A stretch of DNA of 64,000 nt from Planctomycetota bacterium (lineage in GTDB: Bacteria; Planctomycetota; Planctomycetia; Planctomycetales; Planctomycetaceae), in contig QQVO01000007.1 of NCBI GenBank assembly GCA_003388505.1, positions 1-64,000 of the forward strand, written 5' to 3'. Shown here one piece after another: positions 45,314 to 50,619 of this stretch. Under the pieces are notes generated by a model. It saw nothing but the letters and a program-made list of their open reading frames with translations, was not told where the DNA came from and did not search any database. Numbering within the stretch: position 1 is the first letter of the stretch; the number at the start of each line of letters is the position of its first letter. A program made the translations under genes and the position numbers.

Positions 45314-46234
45314 TCAGCATTCAGGGTCACCGAGATGATCCCGGAGAGACGCAGCCAGAAAATAGCCGTTGGTCGTCAGGGCCTTGAACCAGCCGCGAAG
45401 TTGCGCCGGGAGATCGTCCGGATCGCAGTCCGCATGCCTCACAGCGCGCTCGATTGCTTCACCCAGAGGCAGACCGTCCCGCAGGGACCGCAAGAGTTCG
45501 AAAGGGAGCGGCGGAAGCGATCGTCGGCGGACGATGTAATCGCGGCGATTGATCGCCAGCCGGGTCGGCGCGGGATCGGGCGGGGAAGGCGACTCCCCTT
45601 TTTTCACGGATGTAATGTACTCGTGCACCGGGAATCGGAACTCGACAAGTCGCAGTGAGTCGACTGTCGTCAAACGCACGAGCGGCCAGCTCTCCCGCGG
45701 AATGGCGGTCAGCCTCTCGGCGCTCAGCAGCGGCAGCTTTTCCTCTCCCGGTCCGTCGAACACCTCGGAATAAAGTCGCTCCAGCCGCGCGACTTCGATC
45801 AGGAAGTCCATCCAGTCGGGCTGACCATCCGCTGAGACTCGCGCGGGCCGGGTTTCAGCCAGATATTGTGGGAACTTTGCCCCGAGTTGGGTGAGCGTGT
45901 AAGTCGTTGACGGGTGCTGTTGCAGGTATCCGAAACAGAAGGCGCCGAAGGCCTCCTCGCCGGCTGCGTGGCGGAGCGTCGGAAACTCGGCGGAGAGACA
46001 GTCGAGCAGGCGGGCGTAATAGGCGTTGCCGTACACCTGCAGCCTGCCGATGCTGTCCAGCGCCCGCGAGCGGGTGATGACCTGTTCGATCTCTTCAGCC
46101 GCAACATCAATCTCATTCCGCGCCGCCTCGGAGTCGATGCCCGCCGTAACGCCCGCTGGATGCGTGATCACGGACTGCATCCAGCGCTGCAGAGTGCTCA
46201 GGGAAGGCTCAGACTGCGCCATCGGATCGTCCAC
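45314..46234 (-). CDS. DUF2063 (HvfC/BufC-like) partner of an MNIO RiPP maturase
   Basis: 306 residues. The N-terminal domain RLQVYGNAYYARLLDCLSAE, with FPTLRHAAGEEAFGAF, is the DUF2063/HvfC family fold. Members act with DUF692 MNIO enzymes, probably bringing the precursor to the oxidase. The C-terminal half is less conserved. The start GTG at 46234 overlaps the MNIO stop by one base (TAGTG); ATG 46222 is possible. It is the third gene of the set precursor, MNIO, partner. Confidence 0.88.
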   Translation of the reverse strand: MDDPMAQSEPSLSTLQRWMQSVITHPAGVTAGIDSEAARNEIDVAAEEIEQVITRSRALDSIGRLQVYGNAYYARLLDCLSAEFPTLRHAAGEEAFGAFCFGYLQQHPSTTYTLTQLGAKFPQYLAETRPARVSADGQPDWMDFLIEVARLERLYSEVFDGPGEEKLPLLSAERLTAIPRESWPLVRLTTVDSLRLVEFRFPVHEYITSVKKGESPSPPDPAPTRLAINRRDYIVRRRSLPPLPFELLRSLRDGLPLGEAIERAVRHADCDPDDLPAQLRGWFKALTTNGYFLAASLRDHLGDPEC

Positions 46235-47163
46235 TATTCCGCCTCAGCGGTTACGAAGACGGCCGGATGAGGAACGGCCTCGCTCTTCGCGGCTCCGTGA
46301 TCCGGAGCGGTCTCCTGCGTCACGACTCCGTGCGGCTCCCGCGAAATCACCTGCCTGGCCTTGAGGACTTCCGCATGGACCTCCGGAAACGACGGAATGC
46401 TCGAATCCCATTCCAGCAGCGTCGACATGCCTCCCGTCAGCCGATGCGCGTGAGCATAGAGATTCCACACCGGATCGATCACGGGGCCGTCGTGCGTGTC
46501 GACGATGTGCGTCCCCATGTTCGTGTGCCCGGCGAGATGGCACTGCACAACCCGTTCGTGAGGGACGTTCTCGATGTACTCCAGCGGGTCAAAGTCGTGA
46601 TTGACGCTGGAGACGTACACGTTGTTGACGTCGAGCAGCAGTCCGCAGTCGGCCTCCTCCGCCATCCGCGTCAGGAATTCCCACTCGGGCATCGTTGAAG
46701 CCGCGAAGGTCACGTAGCTGCTGGGATTCTCCAGCACCAGCGGGCGTTCCAACACCTCCTGCACAATGCGGATGCGGTCGACGACGTGAGCCAGCACCGT
46801 TTCGTTGAGCGGGACCGGCAGCAGATCGTGTGAATTGCGGCCGGCCACACCGGTCCAGCAGAGATGGTCGGAGACCCAGCGGGCGTTGATCTCCCCGGCG
46901 AGCGCCTTCAGCTTGCCGAGGTAATCGAAATCAAGCGGATCACTGCTCCCGATCGAAAGCGAAACTCCGTGCATCACGACCGGATAGCGTTCGGCGATCT
47001 GATCGAGAACGTATCGGGGCCGGCCCTGCGAGTCGATGTAGTTCTCGGAGATAATCTCGAACCAGTCGACCGCCGGCTCATGTTCCAGCAGAAACGGGTA
47101 GTGGACGCTGCGCAGGCCGACTCCCAGCCCCAGCAGCGGATGTCCCAGTCGCGGTTCGGTCAT
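46234..47163 (-). CDS. bufB: MNIO-type RiPP maturase (DUF692, BufB/HvfB-like)
   Basis: 309 residues, a TIM-barrel multinuclear non-heme iron oxidase. Conserved metal-ligand motifs are seen: [47 protein letters not shown], and [20 protein letters not shown]. In the family these bind two or three irons and oxidise Cys residues in short peptide precursors to oxazolone/thioamide or thiooxazole-type groups. It lies just after a cysteine-repeat precursor gene and just before its DUF2063 partner. ATG 47163. Reaction on this substrate is inferred, not shown. Confidence 0.93.
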
Positions 47164-47195
47164 GGAGATTCAATAGTAACAAGCGCTCGTGCACG

Positions 47196-47225
47196 AACGC
47201 CCACGGGTTGCAACCCGTGGGCGTT
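47196..47225 (-). promoter_or_regulatory. 15-bp perfect palindrome between precursor and MNIO genes
   Basis: AACGCCCACGGGTTG followed by its exact complement CAACCCGTGGGCGTT, in the 87-base gap after the precursor stop. As RNA it forms a strong hairpin. It could cap the precursor message, so that precursor is made in excess of the enzyme, or be a dispersed palindrome. Confidence 0.6.
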
Positions 47226-47250
47226 GCGCAGTTCTCACGACGACAATCGC

Positions 47251-47760
47251 TCAAGCGGCGCCCGCCTCCGGTGCCGGCCCGACCGTCCTGCCCGCTTCTT
47301 CCATCGCCTTCTCAAAGGCCGCGCGGGCCTTCTCCCAGGCGTCGTCCATCAGCGGCACGTGGCACGCCCCCTGGCCCTTGCACCCGTTCTGGCCGGGGTA
47401 CTCTCCACAACCCCCTTGGCCCTTACAGGCGTTGTCCCCTCCACAGGTTTGCTCCGGCACGCTGTGGCAGGTGCCCTGCCCGGCGCAGGCGTTCTCTCCG
47501 CTCTTGCCGAGGTTCTCACACGTATTGAGACCGCGACAGACGTGCGGCTCTTCCAGCAGGTAGGCGACGTCAGGTTCGGCGGCGGCCGCATCATCCCCTC
47601 CGGAAGCGTCGGTCGATTCGGGACCATCCTCCGGTGAAGGCGACTCGGTCGCATCGTCCCCTCCACCGGGACACCCGGCCAGGGTTCCGGCGACAACGCC
47701 TCCGAATGCCGCCGCCGAAAGGCGATTGAAGTCTCGCCGACTGAGATCCGTCTTCTTCAT
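47251..47760 (-). CDS. Cys-repeat Tat lipoprotein, candidate MNIO-modified RiPP precursor
   Basis: 169 residues. The leader LSRRDFNRLSAAAFGG has a twin-arginine motif and ends in lipobox LAGC (C30), so export by Tat and lipid anchoring are predicted. Residues 31-72 are an acidic, disordered linker. Nine Cys follow at 75, 81, 92, 98, 106, 112, 118, 127 and 133, making five C-x-G-x-[N/G]-x-C units (CRGLNTC, CAGQGTC, CGGDNAC, CKGQGGC, CKGQGAC; two are fused). It ends in a helix (DAWEKARAAFEKAMEEAG). GGAGTG precedes ATG 47760. Adjacent MNIO and DUF2063 genes mark it as their substrate. Confidence 0.85.
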   Translation of the reverse strand: MKKTDLSRRDFNRLSAAAFGGVVAGTLAGCPGGGDDATESPSPEDGPESTDASGGDDAAAAEPDVAYLLEEPHVCRGLNTCENLGKSGENACAGQGTCHSVPEQTCGGDNACKGQGGCGEYPGQNGCKGQGACHVPLMDDAWEKARAAFEKAMEEAGRTVGPAPEAGAA

Positions 47761-47930
47761 GAATTCACTCCAGATAGAGATCGATCGATGTTGGGAACTC
47801 TATTCCGCGCGGCCCGCTCGTTGAAAGTCTGGACAACCGAGTCGTTGCGTTCTGTTCAGTATCTCACATTTGCCGACTTGTGCGACCGCTGACTCGCAAC
47901 TCGTTCTGTTGTCCCGTGAGATATTGTCGA

Positions 47931-49211
47931 TCAACGGCACAGCCGGATTCCCGAAAACTGCCAACGGCTCTCGGGCGGAAAGAAGTTGCGGTAAGTTCGG
48001 CGGATGTGCGTCGATGATGTGGCGCACGAGCCACCTCGCAGCACGAACTGATTGCACATGAACTTGCCGTTATATTCGCCCAGCGCTCCGGCCGGCGGCG
48101 CATAGCCGGGATAGGCAACGTACGGACTGGCTGTCCACTCCCACACGTCGCCGTAGATGCGTGGCAGGGCAGCGCCAAGCGCAGGCCGGCAACCGGGGTG
48201 GATCGCGGTGCCGGCCTCCCAATACTCGCCGACAAAATTGCCTGAGAGGTCGTCGCCCGCTGCGACTTCCCACTCCGCCTCGGTCGGAAGGCGGGCGCCG
48301 GCCCACCGCGCGAAAGCGTCCGCTTCAAAGTAACTCACATGACACACCGGCCGATGCAGGTCGATTGTCTGAGCCCCGGCCAGCGTGAACTCCCGCCACT
48401 TGTTCCCCGTCCGCGACCAGTAGAGCGGCCCGGTCCAGCCCTCCCGCCGGACCGCGTCCCAGCCCAGCGACAGCCACAGTTCGGGACGCTCATAGCCCCC
48501 GTCCTCCATGAAGTGCAGGTACTCCCCGCATGTCACCAGCCGGTTGCTGATCTCGAACTCCTCCAGAAAAACGCGATGCCGCGGCGACTCGTTGTCGAAC
48601 GCAAAGTCGTCGCCGGCGTCATATCCGATGCGATACACCCCCTCGTCATGCAGCGACCAGCCGTCCGGGTCTGCCGCCGGGCTGTCCCCAAAGCGGCCGT
48701 CACGGTAGACAGGCTGCAACGGGTTCTGCGCAAGCGCGTGCTTGATGTCGGTCAGGATCAGCTCCTGATGCTGCTGCTCGTGATGCAGACCGATCTCAAT
48801 CGTCGCGGCGAATCTCGCAGCCTCAGAGCTTTCGGATTCCAGCAGATCCAGAATCTGTTCGTCGACGACGCGTCGATACTCCAGCGCCTCGGTCAATCCG
48901 GGCCGCGAGATCATGCCCCGGCGGGGTCGCGAAAACTGCGCGCCGATCGTGTTGTAGTACGAGTTGAACAGGTACGCGAAGCTCTCGTCGAACGGCCGAA
49001 AGCCGGGACAGCGAGCCAGTACGAACGTCTCGAAAAACCACGTCGTATGCGCCAGATGCCACTTCGTCGGGCTGGCATCGGGCATCGACTGCAGATTGCA
49101 GTCCTCGGCGGACAGGGGCCGCGCGAGGTCTTCCGAAAAGCGGCGCACCGCGTCGTATCGAGATGCAAGAGCGGCGGCGGCGACGAGGCTTGGTAAAGTC
49201 TCTGTGAGCAT
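47931..49211 (-). CDS. egtB: Ergothioneine biosynthesis sulfoxide synthase
   Basis: 426 residues: an N-terminal DinB-like helical bundle and a C-terminal FGE-sulfatase (SUMF1) domain. Iron ligands are in WHLAHTTWFF (about 52-55) and HHEQQHQEL (144 and 148). The C-terminal signatures are PVCHVSYFEADAFARW, RIYGDVWEWT and LRGGSCATS. EgtB joins cysteine or gamma-glutamylcysteine to hercynine with O2. It is third in egtD, DUF427, egtB on one strand. EgtA, EgtC and EgtE are absent in the window, as in other two-gene EgtBD organisms, so direct use of cysteine is likely. Confidence 0.93.
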   Translation of the reverse strand: MLTETLPSLVAAAALASRYDAVRRFSEDLARPLSAEDCNLQSMPDASPTKWHLAHTTWFFETFVLARCPGFRPFDESFAYLFNSYYNTIGAQFSRPRRGMISRPGLTEALEYRRVVDEQILDLLESESSEAARFAATIEIGLHHEQQHQELILTDIKHALAQNPLQPVYRDGRFGDSPAADPDGWSLHDEGVYRIGYDAGDDFAFDNESPRHRVFLEEFEISNRLVTCGEYLHFMEDGGYERPELWLSLGWDAVRREGWTGPLYWSRTGNKWREFTLAGAQTIDLHRPVCHVSYFEADAFARWAGARLPTEAEWEVAAGDDLSGNFVGEYWEAGTAIHPGCRPALGAALPRIYGDVWEWTASPYVAYPGYAPPAGALGEYNGKFMCNQFVLRGGSCATSSTHIRRTYRNFFPPESRWQFSGIRLCR

Positions 49212-49244
49212 GTCAAAGGCTTTCGCTCGGCTCGGAGCGTATCA

Positions 49245-49338
49245 CGAATCGGTGTAGACGATCTGTCTCACGGAAGCTCCGCCCGGAAAGTCTGAAAAAC
49301 CGCTCGACGCAGACACACGATTGAGCGTTTCGCTCTAA
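49245..49338. repeat. TTAGAGCG repeat, copy 3 (one-ended)
   Basis: It shares CGATCTGTCTC, CCGCTCGACGC and CGCTCTAA, in order, with 17768-17873. The right end contains the stop codon of the DUF427 gene. It lies in the short gap before egtB. Confidence 0.7.
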
Positions 49339-49619
49339 TCCTGGACCTGCACGCCCTTCCAGAAGGCGACGTGTCCCTTGATGTTCTCCGCCTCGGGCTT
49401 CGGGTCTTCGTAGCTCCAGGCGGCTTGCTGGTTCGTCTGGCCGTCGACTTCGAGGTCGTAGTAACTGGCTGTCCCTTTCCAACCGCAGAATGTCGTAGCG
49501 TCGCTCTTTCGGAAATACTCGCGTCGCAACGAATCCGGGGGGAAGTAGTGGTTTCCCTCGACGACTTCCGTATCATCGCTTTCGGCAAGAACCGCCCCGT
49601 TCCAGATCGCCTTGGGCAT
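49335..49619 (-). CDS. DUF427 domain protein
   Basis: 94 residues starting MPKAIWNGAVLAESD. The pattern VEGNHYFPPDS, FCGWKGTASYYD and NQQAAWSYEDPKP is characteristic of DUF427 (a small beta-barrel family). Its function is unknown. It sits between egtD and egtB on the same strand, 16 bases after egtD, so it may act in ergothioneine metabolism. ATG 49619 is chosen because the conserved domain starts there. Confidence 0.9.
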   Translation of the reverse strand: MPKAIWNGAVLAESDDTEVVEGNHYFPPDSLRREYFRKSDATTFCGWKGTASYYDLEVDGQTNQQAAWSYEDPKPEAENIKGHVAFWKGVQVQD

Positions 49620-49635
49620 CTGTCTGCTCCCTGTT

Positions 49636-50619
49636 TCACTGTTCGGCTTCGGCGACGGCAAAGTGCAGCACGGCGAAGTAATCCCTTTCGTCGGTCCACG
49701 CGCGGTGCAATTCCAGCCCCGCCCTCGCCGCCAGATCTGCGAAGCCGTCGATCGTGTACTTGTGCGAGTGCTCGGTGCAGATTTTCTCACCGGCGGAGAA
49801 ATCAAACGACGCATCGCCCACTTCCACCGTCTGCTCACACAGGCTGACAAGGTCGATCTCAACCCGGTGCAATTCCCGGTTGTACTTCGCCCGATGCTCA
49901 AAGCGGTCCACGTCGATATTGCCGCCAAGTTCCTCGTTAATGCGATGCAGCAGATTCAAATTGAACTCCGCCGTCACGCCCCGCGCGTCGTTGTAGGCCG
50001 CTTCAATGGTGGCAATGTCTTTCTGCAGGTCGACGCCGATCAGCAGCCCGCCGCCGCATCCGCATTTTTCCACAATCCGCCGCAGCATTCTCTCAGCCAG
50101 GTCCGGCGTGAGATTTCCGATCGTGGAACCGGGAAAATAGACCGCCTTGTGCGTCGGAGTCCGCCGGGAGACCGGCAACTCGAACTCGCCGGTGAAGTCC
50201 GCGCAGACCGGCAGAATCTCGATCTCCGGATATCGCCGCGCCAGGCTCTCGGCCGTCTGGTGCAGATGCTCCCCTGAAATATCGACCGGAACATACGCCA
50301 CAGGGCCTTCGAGACGATCAAGCAGCAAAGTCGTCTTCGTGCTGCTGCCGCTTCCGTACTCCACCAGCATCACGCCCGGGCCGATCTGCTCGGCCATTTC
50401 ACCGGCGTACCGCCGCATGATGCCCAACTCGGTGCGCGTCGGGTAATACTCTTCCAGTTCGCAGATCTGTTCAAACAGGTGAGAGCCGCGCTCGTCGTAG
50501 AAGAACTTGCAGGGCAGCGACTTGGGCGCCCGGCCGAGGCCTGTGATCACTTCTTCAAGAAACTCGCTCGACGTCGGCTCGAAGTCGAGCAACTGCGTTG
50601 CCGTTCTGAATGCAGGCAT
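49636..50619 (-). CDS. egtD: L-histidine N-alpha-methyltransferase
   Basis: 327 residues. It methylates histidine three times to hercynine (trimethylhistidine), the first step of ergothioneine synthesis. The SAM motif is VEYGSGSSTKT, and PKSLPCKFFYDERGS with ELEEYYPTRTE is the EgtD N-terminal signature. YFPGSTIGN and KICTEHSHKY also match. First gene of the egtD-DUF427-egtB set, ATG 50619. Confidence 0.96.
   Translation of the reverse strand: MPAFRTATQLLDFEPTSSEFLEEVITGLGRAPKSLPCKFFYDERGSHLFEQICELEEYYPTRTELGIMRRYAGEMAEQIGPGVMLVEYGSGSSTKTTLLLDRLEGPVAYVPVDISGEHLHQTAESLARRYPEIEILPVCADFTGEFELPVSRRTPTHKAVYFPGSTIGNLTPDLAERMLRRIVEKCGCGGGLLIGVDLQKDIATIEAAYNDARGVTAEFNLNLLHRINEELGGNIDVDRFEHRAKYNRELHRVEIDLVSLCEQTVEVGDASFDFSAGEKICTEHSHKYTIDGFADLAARAGLELHRAWTDERDYFAVLHFAVAEAEQ

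Follow-up and report, generated by a model that had tools for sequence, protein, structure and literature searches.

A bufferin-like MNIO locus of a Planctomycetota bacterium with a probable Tat-exported lipoprotein as substrate

Bufferin clusters, which make ribosomally synthesised and post-translationally modified peptides (RiPPs), share a precursor-MNIO-partner gene order (PMC12452194). About 16% of Buf2 precursors are predicted lipoproteins (PMC12452194). A locus of this kind is found in a 64,000-nucleotide stretch of DNA from a Planctomycetota bacterium (assembly GCA_003388505.1, contig QQVO01000007.1, positions 1 to 64,000; hereafter the window). It resembles bufferin 2, in which BufA2 (Buf_6/12Cys) is encoded with BufB and BufC, in gene order, in its BufB-type MNIO, in a DUF2063 partner of the RiPP recognition element (RRE) kind, in C-x-G-x-N-x-C repeats and in an exported precursor; as in Buf2, lipoprotein forms occur. 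Unlike bufferin 2, the window family has nine Cys (not 6 or 12), an extra C-terminal helix and a signal of the twin-arginine translocation (Tat) type in place of a Sec signal; the window precursor also falls far under the BufA2 cut-off, and the family genes lie apart in 27 of 85 genomes. The locus probably represents a bufferin-like RiPP pathway with a Tat-exported lipoprotein as its substrate.

Other described substrates are similar in part. DybA (with DybH) and NedA (with NedBC) are RiPP-lipoproteins, MNIO substrates with a lipobox, and both have been shown to be lipidated in E. coli (PMC12636315). They differ from the window family in having signals described as signal peptidase II (SPII) type and other core motifs. 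Neither Tat nor the Tat pathway is mentioned in the examined passages of that paper, whose survey retained open reading frames (ORFs) of 50-160 aa; 61 of the 82 lipobox members of the window family, the window precursor among them, exceed 160 aa. Oxazolin HvfA (with HvfBC; Buf_EGKCG) likewise involves an MNIO with PME type 1 and needs its signal peptide for good modification (PMC13419390), but has EGKCG repeats and a Sec signal, unlike the window precursor. The Adjamnio families and the small ORFs of Table S2 in PMC12452194 are putative MNIO precursors with Cys motifs, and identity with the window family is possible.

The export signal is the new part, as far as the papers searched go. In the literature searched (without subscription papers or supplements) there is no Tat-exported MNIO substrate, 'RiPP precursor' and 'twin-arginine translocation' never stand together, and MNIO and twin-arginine are mentioned together just in an unrelated paper on a moss mitochondrial genome. 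The main text of PMC12452194 contains neither Tat, twin-arginine nor ferritin, and ferritin-like is absent from the MNIO papers among the matches listed. An earlier note on this DNA had called a Tat and lipobox leader uncommon for such a peptide. For the Tat part this stands; the lipid anchor is no novelty in itself, being already known from Buf2 (PMC12452194) and from DybA and NedA (PMC12636315).

The three genes and their products

The precursor, MNIO and partner genes are all present on the minus strand in the order bufA-bufB-bufC (Table 1). Their spacing is as tight as the earlier note described, with 87 bp between precursor and MNIO and then a 1-base overlap of the MNIO stop with the GTG start of the partner. 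The MNIO scores 354.2 bits with NF050167 (MNIO_BufB), above the cut-off of 310, and 362.5 bits with PF05114. Across 144 MNIOs, namely the window's own and those of the other fetched loci, conservation is 97% or more at eight residues (H65, H100, E145, D178, H209, D222, H224 and E251), and the stretches that hold them align with the solved MNIOs 3bww, 8hci and 7dz9. We take these residues to be the metal ligands. A second MNIO is encoded in the genome (L002, G000:C2:282156-282815; PF05114, 188 bits), followed by a 251-aa ORF. The partner matches PF09836 at 68.5 bits (cut-off 27.2). Its structural model (predicted local distance difference test, pLDDT, 94.3) finds 8hi7_A, the TglI complex, at E 4.5e-6 and NGO1945 (3dee) at E 2.8e-5 in Foldseek; against the leader-bound RRE TbiB1 (5v1u_A) TMt is 0.70, but E is 0.82. 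From these model matches, with RRE folds at the weaker E-values, the partner is predicted to bear an RRE-like fold. The note's DUF692 enzyme with metal-ligand motifs, its DUF2063 partner and its assignment of the locus to the bufferin-type pathway are thus upheld, the BufB model being passed and a PF09836 partner present.

The precursor carries twin Arg at residues 8-9 and a lipobox Cys at residue 30. Ten Cys are present in total, at residues 30, 75, 81, 92, 98, 106, 112, 118, 127 and 133, and the nine of the core yield five C-x-G-x-[N/G]-x-C matches, with Cys112 common to two, just as had been claimed. In 52 aligned homologues 22 columns are invariant, so the pattern is not chance; these include R8, R9, F11, A18 and every core Cys except C81, which is nearly invariant. 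In the C-terminal helix W142, R146 and E150 are invariant in the same 52 rows.

Homologues were gathered by a model of core and helix (at least 60 bits, reaching the helix); the core model was built from 69 sequences first chosen by their RR motif, with the N-termini removed. There were 172 matches, 123 of them distinct. RR-x-[FLMIV] and a hydrophobic stretch occur in 117 of the 123, and 275 of 12,300 shuffled upstream stretches pass the same criterion. The six exceptions are L203, which has a stop inside the frame, and five proteins from Bacteroidota and Cognaticolwellia that have no signal (L094, L095, L096, L099 and L114); with those five set aside, RR is retained in 117 of 118. A Cys is found at the lipobox position in 82 of the RR-bearing members and not in the other 35, so the lipid anchor is optional and the RR motif constant. 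From the core onward, 109 of the 117 have exactly nine Cys. A conserved twin Arg ahead of a hydrophobic stretch, as in Tat substrates, goes with TatC in the genome, and a lipobox Cys at the signal end (LAGC, 27-30), as in bacterial lipoproteins, with LspA (PF01252 match). By motif the signal is of the twin-arginine type, and not the Sec-dependent type of bufferin clusters, in agreement with the note.

The core is, by alignment, a shortened nine-Cys relative of the 12-Cys arrays of Buf2 (BufA2): it aligns as a 12-Cys array shortened at two places, with the C-terminal helix added. Nine core Cys depart from the 6 or 12 conserved in BufA2. Bridging relatives exist among 12-Cys-type proteins, of which those of L086 and L108 pass BufA2 at 67.7 and 63.7 bits (cut-off 60) and those of L084, L090 and L103 score 44.2, 33.6 and 42.2 bits; the repeat is therefore not the unrelated oddity that it had been made out to be. 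The helix is also found in signal-less rows and in two of three rows fused to a ferritin-like domain, and is absent from five 12-Cys-type rows. DUF2282 (PF10048, bufferin 1) is not among the Pfam matches of the precursor at E up to 1.

Part of the signal may also serve recognition. Of 113 distinct family signals, counted after the first R, 112 have A at position 10, 111 have G at position 13 and 109 have G at position 17. A small control from the window's genome gives A 4, G 2 and G 3 among 17 RR-x-F stretches, which came from 15 of the 30 loci used as controls and at least four of which look spurious. The motif A-x2-G-x2-[AGS]-G, with equal spacing, is present in 9 of 11 hand-picked Sec-type BufA2 signals. 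HvfA without its signal peptide is poorly modified (PMC13419390), and a 2026 bufferin paper has the Sec signal as leader in its title, according to PMC13419390. Since Sec signals are reported as leaders, the Tat signal is, by analogy, probably leader and export signal in one.

Across 170 genomes of the order, with BufB matches counted from 260 bits, precursor and BufB occur together in 85, the precursor only in 3, BufB only in none and neither in 82; the genomes are related by descent, so a Fisher test on these counts overstates. BufB is thus present in 85 of 88 precursor-bearing genomes, and the two genes agree in the four genera (g2, g6, g7 and g18) whose listed genomes show both states. The three with precursor only are G074, with a cut-off MNIO adjoining, G046, 59% complete with an MNIO of 179.7 bits elsewhere, and G135, with none. 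Left out of the counts were MNIOs under 260 bits (G069, G099, G168 and second copies in G151, G089, G028 and G160), the precursor matches of G127 and G129 (E 0.005) and other weak or partial pieces. With G069, G099 and G168 taken as MNIO genomes, the figures become 85 with both, 3 with precursor only, 3 with MNIO only and 79 with neither. Some genomes (G044, G070 and G092) have several precursor genes.

The gene set, enzyme class, Tat-type signal, lipobox, core homology to Buf2 and co-occurrence are read from sequence, and the partner fold from a model; from these we infer recognition, chemistry, folding before export and the metal. In the cytoplasm the RRE-bearing DUF2063 protein would bind the precursor, most likely at A-x2-G-x3-G in the Tat signal, with a possible second contact at the C-terminal W/R/FE helix, and present the Cys core to the MNIO. 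The MNIO would oxidise core Cys, each becoming lighter by about 4 Da; the probable products are 5-thiooxazoles that bind copper. The modified product would leave by Tat and be lipidated at Cys30, and, anchored outside the cytoplasmic membrane, it would act as a metal buffer. Copper is the most likely metal by analogy with the bufferins.

The wider family and competing explanations

The same chemistry might serve another role, namely zinc or iron handling, or redox. This overlaps the bufferin-like pathway proposed above, differs from it in function alone, and is unlikely without being far-fetched. Its support comes from relatives in which the nine-Cys core stands at the end of proteins of 492-698 aa with a PF12902 ferritin-like domain (L080, L089, L105, L106 and L111 tested). 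Six E/H residues are invariant in 14 of 14 aligned ferritin-like sequences, a pattern that fits a di-iron site. In other loci the ferritin-like protein has a gene of its own, as though the fusion were split. Matches to the core model are weak (E 3e-4 to 2e-3) for the fusions that have diverged furthest (L106, L109 and L113), the link between fusion and MNIO is not independent evidence because these loci were found through their MNIO, and the window's genome has no PF12902 match. Against another role, the characterised products of MNIOs with PME type 1 are copper-associated (PMC12668002, PMC12452194), and in Caulobacter copper induced, under every condition tested, a gene set that includes those of two DUF692 loci (PMC8224329).

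The core is also found without any signal in L094, L095, L096, L099, L101 and L114. PF09836 is present in 9 of 9 partners scanned (L079, L089, L095, L096, L100, L105, L106, L111 and L114; the L100 substrate is a divergent Tat type). Signal-less nine-Cys loci with a PF09836 partner depart from the published correlation, in which signal-less substrates go with PME type 2 (PMC12452194). It is conceivable, though we would not expect every part to hold, that the nine-Cys core is a movable MNIO substrate domain whose thiooxazoles form a built-in metal site and not a released metallophore. On this view Planctomycetota and Verrucomicrobiota would export it through Tat as a folded and possibly metal-bearing protein, Bacteroidota and Cognaticolwellia would keep it signal-less, and in Pseudomonadota, Acidobacteriota and Bacteroidota it would be joined to ferritin-like domains of the di-iron type, in the instances seen beside a BufB-related MNIO; in many planctomycetes the enzyme would act in trans on a substrate whose gene lies elsewhere in the genome.

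Linkage bears on a second alternative, that the nine Cys bind metal as free thiols in a metallothionein-like lipoprotein and the MNIO has a different substrate. Of 96 precursor genes, 61 have an MNIO on their own strand and no more than 3 kb away. In 27 of 85 genomes precursor and BufB occur only apart; in G148, one contig of 7.07 Mb, they are 2.98 Mb from each other. This separation is what a metallothionein-like protein might show, yet 0 of 170 genomes have a BufB of at least 260 bits and no precursor, and the signal shares its element with Sec-type BufA2 signals. In ten unlinked pairs taken with their flanks (L177 offering just 554 bases on the downstream side), the precursor has no MNIO next to it and the MNIO no precursor-like Cys-repeat ORF. 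The free-thiol explanation is accordingly improbable. Among the neighbours of unlinked precursors, the recurring families look by eye like housekeeping genes.

A quick tree of 86 MNIOs, with 34 open forks and with substrate labels set by hand (L107, a fusion, was labelled as none), shows strong clustering by substrate type, with 20 changes against 46.4 in shuffles. One clade (SH-aLRT 98), with six Tat, two Sec and two unlabelled members, mixes Tat-type and Sec-type 12-Cys substrates, which fits a switch of export route under related enzymes. That the precursor is instead an ordinary Sec-exported bufferin 2 with twin Arg meaningless for export is very improbable: it passes no curated Tat model, and the two signal types do mix in that clade, but Sec signals do not require RR, and RR is kept in 117 of the 118 members that are not signal-less, the lone exception having an in-frame stop.

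Several observations weigh against the bufferin-like pathway with Tat export. The Tat signal was assigned by motif; the 96 places that TIGR01409 listed in the genome up to E 10, with 150 of the 220 candidates scored, do not include the precursor, and PF10399 reached 15.5 bits on the precursor, under its cut-off of 24. The score with BufA2 (NF050166) is 15.8 against a cut-off of 60 bits, and the h-region control is small. AlphaFold gives the precursor a mean pLDDT of 60.2, with 40-67 in the core blocks and 84-85 in those of helix 139-155; the core being of low confidence, the model lends no support to folding before export. Four scanned neighbours (EgtB, EgtD, ICMT-like and Fpg-like) suggest no metal handling. 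Lastly, 35 of the 96 precursor genes are not adjacent to BufB (one of them, in G074, has the cut-off MNIO beside it). Repeats found regularly without a nearby MNIO were what the earlier note said would refute it, and literally they are found; yet 85 of 88 precursor genomes hold BufB, and separate genes therefore point to action in trans, not to absence of relation.

Flanking DNA and further features

Upstream of the precursor lies a degenerate copy of a palindrome, TGTGAGATAACTCACA (TGTGAG-N4-CTCACA), that is found in relatives such as L006 to L031, L115, L093 and L085. Of 116 upstream stretches, 13 carry it without mismatch, 79-101 nt ahead of the start of the precursor, and in 15 genomes of one genus the site at the precursor is the sole exact one in each; five other genomes searched, the window's included, have no exact site. 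A looser form (at least 12 of 14) is present in 16 of 84 representatives where block shuffles expect 0.05, its consensus being drawn partly from the window and relatives, whose scores are thus not independent. Ahead of unlinked MNIO genes the best matches at ten loci were 9-12 of 16, as in shuffles. A look for a regulon of the palindrome gave, besides the 15 exact sites, 11 one-mismatch places in 10 genomes; of the 20 genomes, 3 matched the reversed pattern that served as control. In L297, L300, L302 and L303 the one-mismatch site precedes like genes, as judged by eye, that of L302 being PSCyt2/DUF1549; nine flanking proteins scanned (L296, L298, L302, L304 and L306) included no named metal gene and one DsbD-like protein.

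The precursor-MNIO gap holds a perfect 30-base palindrome, perhaps an attenuator. Of 75 such gaps, 57 fold more stably than shuffled sequence (z of -2.1 or below), against a weak control of 20 mononucleotide shuffles per gap. Further upstream, on the same strand, are egtB and egtD for ergothioneine (47931-50619), in a neighbourhood that is not conserved. A link with ergothioneine was rejected, tblastn on loci below L242 having found EgtB just in the window's own L001, L003 and L005 and in L072, where it is on the other strand.

Two other Tat-type precursors were seen. That of a Blastocatellia locus (L092:4439-4915) starts with MNRRDF and has many SCKGEKA repeats, 17 Cys and an oxazolin-like core. 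A Gemmataceae locus (L059) has two Tat precursors, the first ahead of the MNIO gene and the other between it and the partner gene.

Table 1. Positions of the features in the window and, where a locus is named, in related loci
Feature	Position	Strand	Basis
Precursor (169 aa) with Tat/lipobox signal, 9-Cys core and C-terminal helix	47251..47760	-	ORF, homologues, weak BufA2 match
MNIO, BufB type, 309 aa	46234..47163	-	NF050167, PF05114, solved relatives
Partner, DUF2063 + RRE-like (PME type 1), 306 aa, GTG start	45314..46234	-	PF09836, model, Foldseek
Signal peptide, residues 1-30: RRDF at 8-11, lipobox LAGC at 27-30	47671..47760	-	Conservation, homologue counts, TatC/LspA
h-region element A18-x2-G21-x3-G25, proposed as leader for MNIO and partner	47686..47709	-	Family against control counts
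Cys core, residues 75-133, nine Cys, proposed modification site	47362..47538	-	Alignments, Cys counts
C-terminal helix, residues 139-155, with W142, R146, F149, E150	47296..47346	-	AlphaFold, conservation
Upstream element TGTGAGATACTGAACA, degenerate copy of the relatives' palindrome TGTGAGATAACTCACA	47853..47868	-	92 nt ahead of precursor start codon
Perfect 30-base palindrome, precursor-MNIO gap	47196..47225		Inner 20 bases without other window copy at up to 3 mismatches
PF12902-Cys core fusions beside BufB-related MNIO	L080:3270-4991, L089:3461-4936, L105:3354-4910, L106:3004-4998, L111:2872-4965		
Separate ferritin-like gene just upstream of signal-less precursor (split form of fusion)	L095:2872-4281, L099:2853-4220, L101:2387-3949		

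Meaning for the family

The leader element seems to have been kept through an exchange of export route, and the range of targets for the RRE is thereby narrowed. Because unlinked genes co-occur tightly, mining of gene neighbourhoods misses MNIO substrates. Filters by predicted Sec signal (PMC12452194) or by a length of 50-160 aa (PMC12636315) could likewise miss many members; 61 of the 117 Tat members are longer than 160 aa. If the proposed pathway is correct, this would be the first RiPP precursor family, within the literature searched, to be exported by a route for folded proteins, and would make it possible to ask whether MNIO substrates are modified and folded ahead of export.

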